Origin: Bdellovibrio bacteriovorus
GTDB taxonomy: Bacteria > Bdellovibrionota > Bdellovibrionia > Bdellovibrionales > Bdellovibrionaceae
Assembly (NCBI RefSeq): GCF_001592755.1
Contig: NZ_LUKF01000014.1
Location: 841 to 64,840, forward strand
Direction of reading: 5' to 3'
Length of the DNA stretch: 64,000 nt
The position numbers and the translations under genes were made by a program. Positions 16,537 through 53,589 of the stretch are shown here, piece by piece (within the stretch, counting starts at the first letter, position 1; each line of letters starts with the position of its first letter). Below the pieces are notes generated by a model. The model did no database searches. It saw nothing but the letters and a program-made list of their open reading frames with translations, and was not told the origin of the DNA.

Positions 16537-18756
16537 CTACTTTTTAAGAATGTAATCCAATGAGTGGGCACGCATTTCAAAATAGTCGATGACGAATTCT
16601 TTTGAGCCTTGTGACTTCAGAATGTCGATATTACTTTGAATCTTTTTAAGCATTGAGTCCTTGTCGAACTGAATTTCTTGTCCGTGAAGATAATAAGCCT
16701 GTAGGTGCTTCTCAAGCGAAGACAGGCGTAATAAAACGTCTTTCTCAAAAATATTTAAACCACCTTGAGTGCTCATATATGTTTCAATGTCGGTGCAACG
16801 ATAAGCAAACTCTTTAAGAATGCAGTCTTTGCGGTCAAGACCGTTGAGCTTGCAATTGCGTCCTTCTGAAGAGCGATAAAAGTTTAAAATTTCTTCTGTC
16901 GACTGCTCTTGATATGTGGCAGATGGCATAACACCGTTCTTCGTGAAACCTTTTTTATTTTCAAGATAAGTGTATCCATGGACTTCAGATAAAAAAGCCG
17001 CAGGGAGAAGACGACCTTTTTGATCGACTCTTCGAAAGGCCACGATGTCACCGGCTTTAAGCTGATCTAGGTTTACGGATTGGCATAGGGGCGATTCAAT
17101 AAGAAAAGCGAATTCACTTCCAAAAGTATGATGAACGCCTTGAGAAAGTCCGGCTAAAAGAGTTGAAGAGTTCCAACAATTAGGGCCTTCTTGGCGAGCG
17201 GTAGAATTTTTTAGAAAATCAATGCGCCCTTTTAAAAGTGCAGCTTTTGTGTCGGCATATCCTTTGGAAAGGACGGGGGCTTCAGGCGTCATCACCTGAG
17301 CGGTTTCAATAAAAAGTTGGCGGATTTGAACGGCACTTAAGTGGGGAAGTTCCATCCACACTTTGGCAACTTCGTGAACCATGAAGGGTGTTGCCATCGA
17401 AGTTCCACTGTGTGCAATCAGGCCACCGCCAATGCTGGCCGCGACCACTTTTGCTCCCGGGGCCAGAATGTCGACAGTTTTCGAGCCGTAGTTGCTGAAA
17501 TCAGCCATCTTCGCATTTGCAGGTGTGACTTTACTAAAGTCAGCTGCATCCAAAGCGCCGACTTTTAAAACATTGGGTTGTTCGAAGCTTGCCGGATACT
17601 GGCGATTTTTTCTGTCGTCGATATTTAAGGACTCGTTGCCGGCCGCGACCACAAAGAGAGTCTCTGGATTTTCATCAATCATGCGGCGATAGGCCTTGAT
17701 TCCATCGCGAAGACCCAGAAGATCTTTGGTGTCTGGGGGAAATCCAATGCTCAAATTTACAATTCGCACTTTGTGCTTTTTAAGAAAGGCAGAAATTTTA
17801 TCGATATAACTGGCTTGAGTATAATCACCCGCGAAACCCACAAGGGCCGCATTCGTCAAATCACCAATAGCAATATGAGCCACATGGGTTCCGTGCGAAA
17901 GGGGACGATCATCGCGCTGAAAAGAGGTCGAAGACTCGGTAGGAAGCCCGACATTCTTTACTTGTTCCCAGCCAAAATTATCATCCACCCAGCCATTGCC
18001 ATCGTTATCTTTGCCATCAATGGGATCATCAGGGTTGTTCCACCACTTCGTCACCAATGCGGCGTGATTGTAGTCGAATCCCGAATCAATAATCCCGATA
18101 AGAAATTTACCGGGGTTTTCGCGATGACGCTTATACAGACGAATCTCTTCTTCCGATTTTCCCAGGGAGCGTAAACGTTGTACAAGATCATAGGGTTCAT
18201 ACATTGAAAAACGCGTTTTTATTTTTCCATCTGGAGTAACCTCGACAAATCCCGTAGGCTTTTCATGACGGTCATTGGAGGCATAAGAAAAGGTGATCGA
18301 TGAAAGGGCTTGGCCTTTTTCATTTTCATAATCTTTGCCGATCACGCGAAACGGTGTTTGCGTTTCGTAGCGTTCGATGAACAGAAGCTTGCGAGGGGCT
18401 TCATCGCTATAAACCCATTTGCGAAATAGAATTGAAGATTCGGTCTCACGGTTTTTTGAATCTAAGTTGGAAAGTTCTAACTTGGAAGTGATTTGCCCGT
18501 AGTCTTCTTTTTCAACTGAAAGATTGATGCGAACGGTGTGACCGTTTTCAAGGTAGCTGTAGCGGGACCAGCCCGAGAATCTTCCTGCGATATCAAAGTG
18601 TCGCTCTTCAACAAGTTGGGTGTCTTTGAAATAATATTCTTTAGAAACAACGCCGTTGTCGAATTTCTCTTTACGGACTTCGAACTCTGCCTGTGCAGAG
18701 GTACTTCCCAGAATGAGACACAATGTGAAGATCGCGCGAAAGGAAGAACATTTCAT
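16537..18756 (-). CDS. Secreted subtilisin-like (S8) protease
   Basis: 739 residues with a signal peptide ending STSAQA. An N-terminal domain (about 24-215) has short antitoxin- or MORN-like beta repeats (KEYYFKDTQLVEERHFD). The S8 catalytic triad is intact: Asp224 (GIIDSGFD), His288 (SHGTHVAHIA) and Ser453 (GTSMATP), with the oxyanion Asn374 (AAGNES). A DGKDNDGNGWVDDN insertion after the Asp looks calcium-binding. The C-terminal 240 residues are unassigned and contain several cysteines. GAGG precedes the ATG by six bases. Likely an exported or cell-envelope protease; a predation role is possible but not shown. Confidence 0.9.
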   Translation of the reverse strand: MKCSSFRAIFTLCLILGSTSAQAEFEVRKEKFDNGVVSKEYYFKDTQLVEERHFDIAGRFSGWSRYSYLENGHTVRINLSVEKEDYGQITSKLELSNLDSKNRETESSILFRKWVYSDEAPRKLLFIERYETQTPFRVIGKDYENEKGQALSSITFSYASNDRHEKPTGFVEVTPDGKIKTRFSMYEPYDLVQRLRSLGKSEEEIRLYKRHRENPGKFLIGIIDSGFDYNHAALVTKWWNNPDDPIDGKDNDGNGWVDDNFGWEQVKNVGLPTESSTSFQRDDRPLSHGTHVAHIAIGDLTNAALVGFAGDYTQASYIDKISAFLKKHKVRIVNLSIGFPPDTKDLLGLRDGIKAYRRMIDENPETLFVVAAGNESLNIDDRKNRQYPASFEQPNVLKVGALDAADFSKVTPANAKMADFSNYGSKTVDILAPGAKVVAASIGGGLIAHSGTSMATPFMVHEVAKVWMELPHLSAVQIRQLFIETAQVMTPEAPVLSKGYADTKAALLKGRIDFLKNSTARQEGPNCWNSSTLLAGLSQGVHHTFGSEFAFLIESPLCQSVNLDQLKAGDIVAFRRVDQKGRLLPAAFLSEVHGYTYLENKKGFTKNGVMPSATYQEQSTEEILNFYRSSEGRNCKLNGLDRKDCILKEFAYRCTDIETYMSTQGGLNIFEKDVLLRLSSLEKHLQAYYLHGQEIQFDKDSMLKKIQSNIDILKSQGSKEFVIDYFEMRAHSLDYILKK

Positions 18757-18830
18757 GAAACACCTCAATAGGGATAAGAGGTGCAACAGGGGTGCCCTGA
18801 CAGATTGAATACGCTGACGGCGGGCACGGA

Positions 18831-19364: not shown

Positions 19365-19527
19365 TGACCACTCCTTAACTGAATTTTTGAATTACTATTC
19401 TGTCATGTGTTCTCATCTTGAAACAACCTGAATCATATAAAGCTGTTTATTTCGTGTCGAGGGAAATGCCGATTAAAACTTATGAACTTCTCTTTATATT
19501 ACAGAAGTGTGGACCGATAATGAAACC

Positions 19528-21015
19528 ATGGGGACTTGGTATATCTGGATACTCTTCATGATAGCGATATCTTTTTCGCCGGCGCAAGCTGCTGATCCAT
19601 TTTTGGGTTGTGCAGATTACTGTGCGATGCGCTTTACAGCTGGCAGCAAAGCTTGGGATAACTGTATAGTTCAAACGCAGAACGAAGGATATTGCGGTCG
19701 TCCACCGAGTTCATCTACTCCCACACCTTCACCAGCACCTCGAGAAACTCCCAATCAGAGCACCGGAAATAACCAGAACCGAAATCAAAATCAGAATCAA
19801 CAAAGTCAGTGTTATGCGCAGTATGAAAGTTTGCTGCAGCAATGTAACACACAGATCGAAGACACGTCTTACACTTGCGACGAAAAAAATGATTCCGGTA
19901 TGAATAGCGTCGCGAATACCGCGTCCCAATTGGCTTTGCTGATGGGCCAACAAACTTCCGCGAGCGTTCAAGCCGCATGTTCCAGAATGGGTGATCTTTC
20001 TCAGGCAGCCAGCGGTGCTTTGGCCGCTTATCGACTTACTTGCAGTGAATCGATGAAAACGTGCCGTACAACATGTGATGCAGCCGTGGATTACGTGAAG
20101 GCAAATACCACATGCTTTCCAACCAACTCTGCAACACAGTTGAGTGCCGTGAATGCTTTGTCTCAGGCGCAATCTCGTCGCGATAAGTGTAATAACTTTG
20201 AAAGTAAAATGAATGAAGCGCAACAAGCGATTCAAAACTATGGTGCGACTTCGGCAAATGCCTCTCAGTGTGAAGAGCAGAATAAGGGTGAAGCTACATC
20301 CACGACGCCGGATTTCTGTAAAACGACTCCGAACTATCCAGGGTGTAATCCGGCGGAACCTGTTGATTGTACAAAACCCGAGTTAGCGAGTTCGAACAAA
20401 GTTTGTATCTGTACGAAAAATCCATTGGATTCTGCGTGTTTCACGCAGGAAAAAACAACGGGAAATGCTCAGGTAGGAAATCTTATCGATTCATCCAGTC
20501 GTTTAGCGGCTAAAGGTGGCGACGACTTAGGCGGAGATCTTCCTGGATTGCCAGGCATCGAACACGGCCAACTTCCTTCTGGTGGTTATGGTGATGCTGT
20601 CGATGGGGCTCAAGGCGGAGGCGGATCGAGCCTGGGTGGTGAAAGTAGCAGCGGTGGAGGCAGTTATGCTGACGCCTTAAATGGTGAAGGCAATGCTGCG
20701 GCTAACGAAAAAGCTTCTAACGTGAATGGTGGATACTACGGCGGCGGCGGAGGAAGTGGAAGCGGACTTGGTGGCGGAAGCGGCAGCGACGGCCAACCCG
20801 GAGTTCGCCAACCTTCAGCTGCGGGCACCGGAGGCGTTGCTGGCAAAGGCGGTCCCGATCTTCGCCAGTTTTTACCGGGTGGAAAATTTGATCCGCGCCT
20901 CCGTGGAGTAGCGGGTGCTTCGGGCCCCGATGGTATCACGGGACCTCATTCGAATATTTGGCATAAGATCCAAAACAGATATAAGGTGGTCAGCCCTTCG
21001 TTGCTACCATATTGA
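19528..21015 (+). CDS. Exported Cys-rich/Gly-rich protein, tandem paralogue 1
   Basis: About 495 residues, not a family I recognise. A signal peptide (ending SPAQA) is followed by a short N-terminal Cys segment and an N/Q/P-rich linker. A Cys-rich helical domain contains IEDTSYTCDEKNDSGM, ASQLALLMGQQTSAS and KVCICTKNPLD. Next comes a Gly/Ser-rich tract (about residues 350-440). The last 45 residues include FDPRLRGVAG and SGPDGITGPHSNIW, nearly identical in the next gene. The start is set by the signal peptide; the Shine-Dalgarno is weak. Probably an outer-surface or secreted structural protein. The conserved tail after a Gly linker may be a sorting or binding tag (inference). Confidence 0.78.
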   Translation: MGTWYIWILFMIAISFSPAQAADPFLGCADYCAMRFTAGSKAWDNCIVQTQNEGYCGRPPSSSTPTPSPAPRETPNQSTGNNQNRNQNQNQQSQCYAQYESLLQQCNTQIEDTSYTCDEKNDSGMNSVANTASQLALLMGQQTSASVQAACSRMGDLSQAASGALAAYRLTCSESMKTCRTTCDAAVDYVKANTTCFPTNSATQLSAVNALSQAQSRRDKCNNFESKMNEAQQAIQNYGATSANASQCEEQNKGEATSTTPDFCKTTPNYPGCNPAEPVDCTKPELASSNKVCICTKNPLDSACFTQEKTTGNAQVGNLIDSSSRLAAKGGDDLGGDLPGLPGIEHGQLPSGGYGDAVDGAQGGGGSSLGGESSSGGGSYADALNGEGNAAANEKASNVNGGYYGGGGGSGSGLGGGSGSDGQPGVRQPSAAGTGGVAGKGGPDLRQFLPGGKFDPRLRGVAGASGPDGITGPHSNIWHKIQNRYKVVSPSLLPY

Positions 21016-21089
21016 GACGTTTTGAATTGAGATAGTTTATACTTTTGTAAAGTTGTCGATCCCGAGATCCGATAAATGGGTCTATGGGA

Positions 21090-22610
21090 ATGAAGTTTTT
21101 TGCCGCAGTTTTCTCTTTCTCCTCACTTTTATTAAGTGCTTCACCTACCTTGGCCGCAGAGGCCTGTGGCTCGATGACCTGTCGAGACGATCACTACTGC
21201 GAGCGCAAAAATAATCTCGTGGGCAAATTGACGGAAACATGTAAGCCTAGATCCAACTACACGGCTCCCGATAGCACTTCAGGAAATGCAGCGCAAGCAT
21301 TGGCCGACTGCCGTAGAACTTGTCAGTCTCCCAATGTCTGTAATGCCGACAACAGTGAGCGCACGAGCTATTCATGTCGTGCGCCTGATGGCAATCGCGC
21401 CAACGCGAATAACGCTCCAACGTGCAACCAGCAATTCCAACAATTGATGCAAGCTTGTACCTCGCAAATTGAAGACACATCTTACACTTGCGACGAAAAA
21501 AATGACTCCGGCATGGCCGAAGTCACTAACACAGCTTCGCAACTAGCTCTTCTCATGGGTCAACAAACCTCGGCAAGTATTCAAGCGGCGTGTTCGAAGA
21601 TGGCATCTTTATCACAAGCGGCTAATGCCGCTGTTGCAGCTTACCGTTTGACATGCAGTAACTCTATTGGAAGTTGTAAATCGGCTTGTGGAGCAGCGAA
21701 AACTTACGCTCAACAACAGGCGACTTGCCTTAGTGCTGGAAACGCTGCTTTAGCTGTCCAACTTGCTTCTCAGGCGGACACAGAGTTAAAACGCTGCGAC
21801 AGTTTTGAAAACAAAGTCAGCGAGGCCAATCAAGCGATTTCAAACTTCGGTACGACTTCCGCAAATGCTTCGCAATGTGCTTCTTTGACTTCCGGTGAAG
21901 CAGCTCCAACACCCGAGTTCTGTACGGCGAATCCCACTTATCCAAGTTGCGTGGCTCAACAAGCCGTGGATTGTACAAATCCATCGCTTGCTACCACGAA
22001 CAAAGTTTGTATCTGTCAGAAAAATCCGATGGACCCTGCCTGTGTAACAGAGCAAAAAGTGGGTGACAGTGGCTCTGTGGCTTCGATGATTGACTCGTCT
22101 TCGCGTGTCGGCGCCAAAGCGGGTGAAGATTCTTTCGGCGGTGATTTGGGTTCCACTCCACCTATTCAACATGGTCAACTTCCTTCTGGGGGAGCAGGCC
22201 AATCGGTTGACGGTTCCCAAGGTGGTGGCGGAGGCTCTTTAGGTGGAGGCAGTGGCTCTGGCGGTGGTTCTTATGGATCCGCAAGTGGCGGTGGCGCCGC
22301 TGGTGAAGACGGAGCCAATGTGAATGGTGGTTTCTATGGCGGTGGCGGCGGCAGTGGTCGTTCTTTCGCTGGGAGCGGATCGGGCGAAGGCGGTGGCGGC
22401 CCAGGCGGAGCTGCGGGTATGCCCGGTTCGGGTGTTCCTGGGGCGAATGGACCTGATTTAAGAAAGTTTCTTCCGGGCGGGCAGTTTGATCCAAGACTTC
22501 GTGGCGTTGCCGGTTCTTCGGGACCCGACGGTATTACGGGACCGCATTCAAATATTTGGATGAAAATCCAAAACCGTTACAAGGTGATGGTGCCTTCTTT
22601 GTTGCCTTAG
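21090..22610 (+). CDS. Exported Cys-rich/Gly-rich protein, tandem paralogue 2
   Basis: About 506 residues with a signal peptide (LLLSASPTLAA). It shares the whole plan of the preceding gene: the Cys domain with IEDTSYTCDEKNDSGM and LALLMGQQTSAS, the Gly/Ser-rich tract, and the C-terminal DLRKFLPGG, FDPRLRGVAG and SGPDGITGPHSNIW block. Its N-terminal mini-domain is different and richer in cysteine (CGSMTCRDDHYCERKN). An ATG two codons upstream (21084) is equally possible. It lies 74 nt after paralogue 1 and ends before a strong terminator, so the two probably form one transcript. Confidence 0.78.
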   Translation: MKFFAAVFSFSSLLLSASPTLAAEACGSMTCRDDHYCERKNNLVGKLTETCKPRSNYTAPDSTSGNAAQALADCRRTCQSPNVCNADNSERTSYSCRAPDGNRANANNAPTCNQQFQQLMQACTSQIEDTSYTCDEKNDSGMAEVTNTASQLALLMGQQTSASIQAACSKMASLSQAANAAVAAYRLTCSNSIGSCKSACGAAKTYAQQQATCLSAGNAALAVQLASQADTELKRCDSFENKVSEANQAISNFGTTSANASQCASLTSGEAAPTPEFCTANPTYPSCVAQQAVDCTNPSLATTNKVCICQKNPMDPACVTEQKVGDSGSVASMIDSSSRVGAKAGEDSFGGDLGSTPPIQHGQLPSGGAGQSVDGSQGGGGGSLGGGSGSGGGSYGSASGGGAAGEDGANVNGGFYGGGGGSGRSFAGSGSGEGGGGPGGAAGMPGSGVPGANGPDLRKFLPGGQFDPRLRGVAGSSGPDGITGPHSNIWMKIQNRYKVMVPSLLP

Positions 22611-22633: not shown

Positions 22634-22663
22634 AAAAAAGGGAAGATCACTCTTCCCTTTTTT
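22634..22663. terminator. Bidirectional terminator between convergent genes
   Basis: AAAAAAGGGAAGA and TCTTCCCTTTTTT form a perfect 13-bp stem around TCAC. It lies between the converging paralogue 2 and lysC. Confidence 0.9.
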
Positions 22664-51783: not shown

Positions 51784-53589
51784 TTAGCGGCTGGAGGGGA
51801 TTATTGTTGAGGTTGTTCCTGTTGTTCCGATCACGCTGCCGGGGAGGGGAGTTAGGATCGAGGTTCCTGTTGTTGTTCCTAGTGAGGTGAGGCCTATTGA
51901 GCTTGTGGAGCCAATGTAGCTTGTTCCGTAGCCGTATTGGATTTGTTGGATTCGGGACATTAAGTTGTACATTTCTTGTTGGAGTGAGGATACGGCTTGG
52001 TATTTTTGCAGTGTTTGCGATTGGTACTGTTGTTGGTATTGCATCATGCTTTGATATTGTTGCATCTGCATTTGCATCATTTGTTGTTGATACTGGGATT
52101 GCATTTGCATCATTGTGGAGTCGTAGCCGGTCATTGTTCCCATGCCCATCATGTTTCCGTAGCCCATCATATTTCCATAACCCATCATGGATCCTGTCAT
52201 TGAGCCCATCATTGAACCCATCATTGATGCCATGGGATATCCTGACATCATGGTGCCCATTCCCATCATCGATCCCATTGGATAGCCGCTCGTCATTGCT
52301 CCCATCATAGAACCCATCATGTTTCCCATTCCCATGATGCCGCCGACACCCATCATGCTTCCATAGCCACCCATCATATTACCCATGCCCATCATTGGGT
52401 AACCGCTCATGCCGCCATAACCGGACATTCCCCACGGGCCCATGCCTCCGTTGAAGATGCCGCCGCCCATAGTGTTTCCCATCATGCCTGCGGGATAACC
52501 GAAGGCGCCGCCCATGCCCATGTTTCCGTAGAGGCTTCCGGTGCCATAAGCGCCCATCATGCCCATCGGGCCGTTCATGTTTCCGGTTCCACCCATGCCG
52601 CTTCCACAGCCGAAGGCTCCTTGACCCGTGCCGCCACCTAGGGCGCCGTAAATTCCTGCGGCTAAGTAGGGGAAGCCGTAGCTCCAGCTGGGGTAACTTT
52701 GTGTGGGCCATCCGATGTTGGAGTTGTATTCCGCCACCATCTTATTTTGTTGATATCCTGTGTACGTCGCTAGTAATCCCGTTCCGACGTTGGCGATCAC
52801 ATTCGCCCAATCTGTTTGGGGTTTTTGATATTGATAACCGCCGTTACCTTGTTGCATACACTCGACACAAATGCCGCCTTCGGTTTGCGCGGTCATGCGT
52901 TCGCGTTGCTCTTCTAAAGCGTTTTGTTTGGCGTCTTTTAAATCTTCTTTCGAGCGTTCGATCAGTGATTCTAAACTTTCAATTTCGCGCTGAAGTTTTT
53001 GCGACTTGGCGTAGGACTTTCTGTATTCACCCAAGCCTTTTTTACAAGTATTTGCATCCGCACGTCCACCTTCACTGGGTTTGAAACGCGAGTTCGAACA
53101 AATAGAGGCGCTGACCGAACCGGCTTTGCCTGGATCACAATACTGTTTCCATTCAGAAATCGTGAACCCATGAACAGGAGTCATCGCTGTGCCAGGAAGT
53201 TGCTCAGAGCCTTGCTGGCCTTGCGCTGAAAACTCACCTTCGTCTTGCAAGCCTTTATATTCATAACACTGACGATTGTTTTCAATGTGTTCAAAGACGA
53301 ACTGGGCATAGTCATCGGAAACCGTTTTTTCAATGTCCGCCTTGTGTCTTTCAGATTCGCGATCGGTCTTTTTCTTTTCAGACTTCTTTGTCTTTAGCTG
53401 CTTTTGCGCTTCGCTGATCGCAGACTGAATTTCTTTAGTCTCATCATCTTGATTGGTAGCTCCGTTGCCGGCGCGGGTTAGGTATGAGCAGCCCTGCATT
53501 CCGCCCCACATGCCCGTGCCCCACATCGATTGGGCCCAAGAAGCGATCGGGCAAGAAATCAAAAGTACTAAACCTAAATTGCGAAGCAT
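51784..53589 (-). CDS. Exported Met/Gly-rich low-complexity protein
   Basis: 601 residues, family unknown. A signal peptide (ending SWAQ) and a WGTGMWGGMQGC segment are followed by a charged coiled coil (about 55-245, with paired cysteines such as ICVECMQQ). Residues about 325-500 are almost only Met, Gly, Tyr, Ser and Asn, built from MMG, MGNMMG and SGYPM units. A Gln/Met tract (QYQQQMMQMQMQQ) and a Thr/Ser/Ile/Gly tail end it. AAGGTGG precedes the ATG. Dense Met suggests soft-metal (copper) binding or an assembly-prone fibre; both are inference. Confidence 0.82.
   Translation of the reverse strand: MLRNLGLVLLISCPIASWAQSMWGTGMWGGMQGCSYLTRAGNGATNQDDETKEIQSAISEAQKQLKTKKSEKKKTDRESERHKADIEKTVSDDYAQFVFEHIENNRQCYEYKGLQDEGEFSAQGQQGSEQLPGTAMTPVHGFTISEWKQYCDPGKAGSVSASICSNSRFKPSEGGRADANTCKKGLGEYRKSYAKSQKLQREIESLESLIERSKEDLKDAKQNALEEQRERMTAQTEGGICVECMQQGNGGYQYQKPQTDWANVIANVGTGLLATYTGYQQNKMVAEYNSNIGWPTQSYPSWSYGFPYLAAGIYGALGGGTGQGAFGCGSGMGGTGNMNGPMGMMGAYGTGSLYGNMGMGGAFGYPAGMMGNTMGGGIFNGGMGPWGMSGYGGMSGYPMMGMGNMMGGYGSMMGVGGIMGMGNMMGSMMGAMTSGYPMGSMMGMGTMMSGYPMASMMGSMMGSMTGSMMGYGNMMGYGNMMGMGTMTGYDSTMMQMQSQYQQQMMQMQMQQYQSMMQYQQQYQSQTLQKYQAVSSLQQEMYNLMSRIQQIQYGYGTSYIGSTSSIGLTSLGTTTGTSILTPLPGSVIGTTGTTSTIIPSSR

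Follow-up and report, generated by a model that had tools for sequence, protein, structure and literature searches.

PEP-CTERM, GlyGly-CTERM and MYXO-CTERM sorting tags comprise a transmembrane helix at the C-terminus and, after it, a cluster of basic residues, and the C-terminal domain (CTD) of type IX secretion (T9SS) is a folded domain of some 80 residues. Among pilus systems, the minor pilins TadG and KilN of Myxococcus xanthus have been described as interchangeable, disulfide-rich tips of the Tad pilus, and a tip complex has been predicted for Bdellovibrio too, according to the accessible text of Herrou et al. (2025, PMC12075869). For Bdellovibrio bacteriovorus, the available portion of another report gives bd0109-bd0119 as the Flp/TAD locus and states that Flp pilins are needed for predation (PMC5430801). 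How Bdellovibrio-like predators recognize and grip their prey remains an open question, and only recently, in the accessible part of that work, were Tad-type pilus tips put forward as recognition modules that a different predator can interchange (PMC12075869).

Here we describe a protein family of the Bdellovibrio order built from a head, a core, a linker and a constant tail of about 50 residues, starting from a tandem gene pair in a 64,000-nucleotide stretch of B. bacteriovorus DNA (the window). We also describe an order-wide neighbourhood composed of a TadG-like minor pilin, a family member and a third exported protein, which is new here.

The pair lies on the + strand at 19528-21015 (gene 1) and 21084-22610 (gene 2), with 68 bases between the two ORFs. 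It encodes proteins of about 495 (P0001) and about 508 residues (P0002) that are 55% identical overall, which bears out the preliminary description of two tandem exported paralogues. The ORF of gene 1 opens with GTG at 19507, but the proteins of many relatives begin with MG, which makes the ATG at 19528 (MGTW...) the likelier start. From the N- to the C-terminus, both proteins comprise a signal peptide, a Cys-containing head, the core, a Gly/Ser linker and the tail. The Sec signal peptides, recognized by eye from a hydrophobic start and an A-x-A site, probably span 19528..19590 in gene 1 (MGTW...PAQA) and 21084..21155 in gene 2 (MGMKFF...PTLA). They are followed by divergent N-terminal heads, assigned by sequence comparison and head clustering to cluster N1 (gene 1, 19591..19809) and cluster N2 (gene 2, 21156..21422). 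The putatively disulfide-rich helical cores occupy 19810..20439 and 21423..22043, as placed by alignment (of 89 relatives for gene 2) and structure models. The Gly/Ser-rich linkers (20440..20856 and 22044..22454), placed by pair alignment and composition, contain 38-45% Gly and 12-14% Ser. Alignment, tail profile and dN define the conserved C-terminal tails at 20857..21012 (DLRQFLPGG...FDPRLRGVAG...GPDGITGPHSNIW.KIQNRYK...) and 22455..22607. The two proteins had been said to have a Cys domain in common and unlike N-terminal parts, and aligned residues are indeed 59% identical in the core and 26% in the heads. Downstream of gene 2, a terminator-like hairpin with a T-run at 22634..22663 (+) was found as a scan match only, one of four against 3.4 expected.

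Judged by eye from the translations, the pair is flanked by a glutathione-peroxidase-like gene and an aspartokinase gene, with flagellar flgF/flgG-like genes further out. B. bacteriovorus strain kdesi (L004) has the same neighbourhood, and this lysC (home) locus holds one to four family copies in same-genus genomes. As given in the accessible text of PMC12546842, RecA is Bd0512 and FlgF is Bd0530 in strain HD100, so the home-locus copies of that strain can be estimated to lie at about Bd0520-Bd0527. Homologues of the subtilase gene (PF00082) at 16537-18786 (-) of the window occur near the home locus in nine of the loci compared. Further along the window, 51784-53589 (-) encodes an exported protein of 601 residues, a long part of which consists of Gly/Met-rich (MMGxG) repeats.

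Constraint on the protein is strongest in the tail. When the last approximately 47 residues of P0001 and P0002 are compared without gaps, the best 36-residue window has 33 identical residues, against a maximum of 12/36 when the second tail was shuffled 1000 times. The figure of 33/36 given in the preliminary description thus stands for this best window, but the 36-mer that begins with FDPRLRGVAG gives 32/36; over the whole tail, 88% of aligned residues are identical. Between the window genes, the tail has a dN of 0.145, compared with 0.336 for the core, 0.486 for the linker and 0.90 for the head, while pS is near saturation throughout (0.67 to 0.74 across all parts). The tail had the lowest dN in all seven comparisons made. 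Likewise, the mean share of 89 members agreeing with P0002 at each position is 0.64 in the tail, 0.39 in the core and 0.11 in the head. Because synonymous sites are near-saturated while dN is 0.145, the identity of the tails reflects constraint on the protein rather than recent copying of DNA. It is very improbable that the pair merely stems from a recent tandem duplication and that its 3' ends have had no time to diverge, or have been gene-converted. The two genes are indeed tandem paralogues, and on the core tree copies from one locus cluster in several cases, so that some homogenization does occur; but the synonymous sites of the tail (pS 0.67, dS 1.7) are near saturation, and genomes throughout the family and the order retain this tail. 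Chance or recent duplication was rejected as the source of the similarity on the grounds of near-saturated synonymous sites, low dN and the wide occurrence of the tail. For the two closest pairs compared (both with L035), tail pS is 0.25 and 0.33 against 0.62 in the core, which leaves room for slight homogenization of the tail in these two cases.

Eight cysteines of the core (P0002 positions 125, 136, 170, 191, 198, 202, 238 and 265) are shared by 98% or more of 89 aligned relatives, and another four (297, 309, 311 and 320) by 91% or more; this alignment takes in 89 of the 91 family ORFs, leaving out a 107-residue remnant from strain kdesi and an ORF truncated where its contig ends. These residues presumably form disulfides. 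An AlphaFold2 model of the core, run with four sequences, consists of three long helices at a mean pLDDT of 62, and the whole-protein model (mean pLDDT 47) leaves linker and tail unresolved; confidence in the models is low to middling. None of 423 Foldseek matches of the core in the PDB reached E<=0.001. The tail has no invariant Cys and no transmembrane segment, the top 19-residue hydropathy over the last 56 residues being -0.07 and 0.03 in the two proteins.

With a two-row profile, the family was found in 23/23 other genomes of the genus and in 63 of 118 relatives overall (E<=0.001). A 16-row profile extended this to 87 of 241 genomes of the phylum (E<=1e-5), of which 84 belong to the order, two lie elsewhere in the class and one elsewhere in the phylum. 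Three genomes of the same-family genus g3 (L139, L140, L141) carry a diverged family copy beside a TadG-like gene, which the two-row profile missed or scored weakly. In total, 91 family ORFs were collected from 62 stretches (L004, the window and L035-L094). The tail stands at the end of 90 of them, the sole exception being the ORF cut by a contig end, and in tail-bearing family ORFs it never stops more than 10 residues before the C-terminus.

A motif search of the genome and its relatives, the check proposed in the preliminary description, shows that the tail is not confined to the pair, as it would have had to be for that description to be refuted. By profile search, four proteins of the window's own genome bear the tail. 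Besides the window pair these are C1:411091 (E 4e-21), a family member adjoining a TadG-like gene, and C16:142115 (E 2e-4). This fourth family protein (L100:430-1653, on contig C16) has the tail without a Gly-rich linker and lies near a gene that by eye resembles a Hint-domain protein. Two weaker matches in the same genome (E 0.015 and 0.98) were taken as chance, the first being a collagen-like Gly-rich protein. Across 15 chosen genomes, 74 tail matches were obtained at E<=0.01, three to 10 per genome, and 70 of these lie in family proteins. The exceptions are two remnants and two tandem proteins of one genome (G029); the tail of the latter is canonical (E 1e-17 and 1.5e-14), and their bodies match the core profile only at E 0.08 and 0.02. 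A lone-tail remnant lies at about 6000-6090 of L046 (genome G017), adjoining a trypsin-like gene. In strain kdesi there is the 107-residue remnant (L004:5983-6306), in which the end of the core is fused almost directly to the tail, with the head and most of the linker missing.

That tail and core occur nearly always together, in all but four of the 74 matches, would also be expected if the tail were a structural element, acting in oligomerization or as an intramolecular clasp that closes the protein on its core and needs no external partner. The window tails contain about five Gly-X-Y triplets, counted by eye, and such a stretch could suggest a collagen-like or trimeric element. However, the Gly-X-Y pattern is gone in the TadG-linked members, which have, for example, KNEVTGQGGKSNWEKVKERYR at the same place; as the repeats are not conserved, the idea of a collagen-like tail was dropped. 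The tail moreover outlasts a recognizable core in G029, a flexible linker of 100 residues speaks against a compact clasp, and the whole-protein model gives no confident tail structure. We consider a purely structural tail to be quite unlikely.

While the tail is constant, the heads vary. BLAST clustering of the heads of 62 same-genus members yielded N1 (22 members), N2 (15) and many small groups, where N1 is a single-linkage cluster that may merge two head types; these clusters were used instead of a regex classification, which had left 39/62 heads as 'other'. Ten tandem home loci (the window, L035, L036, L038, L039, L040, L047, L049, L051 and L057) have an N1 head before an N2 head. Others depart from this order, with N1 and N1 in L004 and L068, N1, N1 and N5 in L043, N15 and N1 in L054, and neither N1 nor N2 in L053, L066 and L067. 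On the core tree, which is a quick tree with long branches, the N1/N2 label requires at least seven changes for 37 rows, and same-locus copies group by genome in, for example, L038 (SH-aLRT 95), L067 (99) and L057 (92). This pattern suggests that bodies have been homogenized, or heads exchanged, with differing heads being retained.

The neighbours of dispersed copies form a side observation. Trypsin-like genes adjoin six of ten dispersed same-genus copies (L037, L042, L045, L046, L048 and L056, against L041, L044, L050 and L055), and Pfam confirms this identity for three of the genes. About 0.1 such genes per locus would be expected, because the six genomes searched carry 11-24 each; gene orientations vary and some loci look orthologous. 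By eye, genes resembling the N-terminal part of RHS-type proteins, without the remainder, lie near family copies in L037, L044 and L048.

The family member at C1:411091 belongs to a same-strand trio (L096:5042-10012, contig C1). Upstream of it lies the gene of a 742-residue protein with a TadE/G-like domain (PF13400, E 1.9e-8, above cut-off), and downstream that of a 344-residue exported protein ending in ...IGVAADSIFLMMTRRYK... Of 118 relatives, 114 have the TadG-like protein, with few exceptions as a single copy per genome, and 107 have the third protein. From the 114 genomes we selected 40 stretches downstream of TadG-like genes, two of which were cut by contig ends. In the 38 usable neighbourhoods, a family gene adjoins the TadG-like gene in 25, both partners are present in 24, and 13 have neither a family gene nor a gene for the third protein. 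The two copies in the window have no adjoining Tad gene. Three same-family genomes with no detected TadG-like gene still carry the Tad component RcpC, so co-loss of the family with the TadG-like gene is uninformative. The family tail and the tail of the third protein show a weak profile match (hhalign probability 15%, P 0.0017) and a similar order of features, namely Gly, Ile/Val-Gly/Thr, an aromatic residue and Arg-Tyr; we do not claim common ancestry for them.

The tail could instead be a signal for secretion or outer-membrane anchoring by a non-Tad machinery, with the TadG-like neighbourhood being an old operon and nothing else. Such a signal would fit a tail that, after a flexible linker, forms the extreme C-terminus of many paralogues and of two dissimilar bodies. 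It would also fit the placement of most copies away from Tad genes, which in the majority of same-genus genomes means the lysC locus; C-terminal signals are also used in other phyla, as far as the accessible sources on the T9SS CTD and MYXO-CTERM go. However, the tail offers no hydrophobic anchor and matches no NCBIfam sorting family, no candidate receptor or processing enzyme was found, and the order-wide gene partner is the TadG-like protein. This alternative appears unlikely, while deserving serious consideration. The preliminary description had offered sorting, anchoring or partner binding as roles for a tag. That the tail is the tag of a family of exported proteins fits its C-terminal position in 90/91 ORFs, but a sortase-type anchor of the PEP-, GlyGly- or MYXO-CTERM kind is unlikely because the tail has neither a transmembrane segment nor an NCBIfam match. 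Among the three roles, partner binding, perhaps to a Tad-type tip, is the best fit.

We tentatively propose, as a possibility still short of probable, that the family combines exchangeable heads with a constant tail that serves for docking, most likely to a Tad-type pilus tip or a neighbouring surface component. Each family protein would be exported by Sec, and its tail would then act as a docking module that binds a common partner outside the inner membrane. That partner would most likely be the TadG-like tip complex of a Tad-type pilus, or an adjacent component. Our first candidate is the TadG-like protein, since no gene partner is kept more widely in the order and since TadG-type proteins make interchangeable, disulfide-rich tips in Myxococcus that are also predicted in Bdellovibrio, as the accessible text of PMC12075869 has it. 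The flexible linker may let core and head reach outward, and extra copies such as the window pair may present alternative heads on one body, perhaps for the recognition of prey or surfaces. The partner, the location and the role of the family are inferred, and a link to prey is suggested by lifestyle only. A fuller hypothesis, in which Bdellovibrionales use a lineage-specific C-terminal tag to load an exchangeable set of disulfide-rich heads onto a Tad-type tip or surface complex for prey recognition, with the tail binding the TadG-like complex and heads being added by tandem duplication and recombination, is more speculative, and we regard it as rather doubtful in its entirety.

The family matches no described one in the resources searched. 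Searches of Pfam, NCBIfam, PHROGs, PADLOC and PDB sequences gave nothing above cut-off for the window proteins, and tblastn against phage records gave no match. DUF885 scored 20 bits on P0001 against a cut-off of 32.4 and was taken as a chance match of helical sequence. In NCBIfam at E<=1, P0001 matched only halo_CC_star (E 0.37, below cut-off) and P0002 nothing, and PF13400 matched neither protein at E<=1. Open-access literature searches on the estimated locus tags of HD100 and on Bdellovibrio proteins with C-terminal tags returned no paper on the family, and the accessible portions of PMC3539863 and PMC2797640 contain nothing on these genes.

The combination of a constant tail and variable heads, genetically tied to an order-wide TadG-like protein, provides a concrete gene list. 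Should the link to Tad prove mistaken, a tag conserved at the C-terminus of several exported proteins in each genome would still point to an undescribed sorting or docking system.

Compared with known systems, the family resembles T9SS cargo, as described in the accessible sources, in having a C-terminal element on Sec-exported proteins that otherwise differ; however, its tail has about 50 residues, and the Pfam and NCBIfam results contain no CTD match. With MYXO-, PEP- and GlyGly-CTERM it has in common a short conserved C-terminal element carried by the exported proteins of one lineage, but the family tail is free of a transmembrane helix, of an invariant Cys and of any NCBIfam match. The Flp/TAD locus bd0109-bd0119 represents the same kind of pilus system as the one implied by the TadG-like trio, but the trio lies outside it: genome G005 has RcpC at 104 kb, whereas its trio occupies 132-137 kb. 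In the accessible text of PMC12075869 the Bdellovibrio tip genes are unnamed, so that whether they correspond to the present TadG-like protein cannot be told. The window proteins differ from Tad (Flp, type IVc) tips in matching no Tad, TadE or TadG profile and in having, by eye, ordinary-looking Sec signal peptides rather than pilin leaders; they would be accessory proteins rather than minor pilins. The likeness to these tips lies in the order-wide TadG-like neighbour (PF13400) of the family and in its swappable heads, which recall the tips of Myxococcus.
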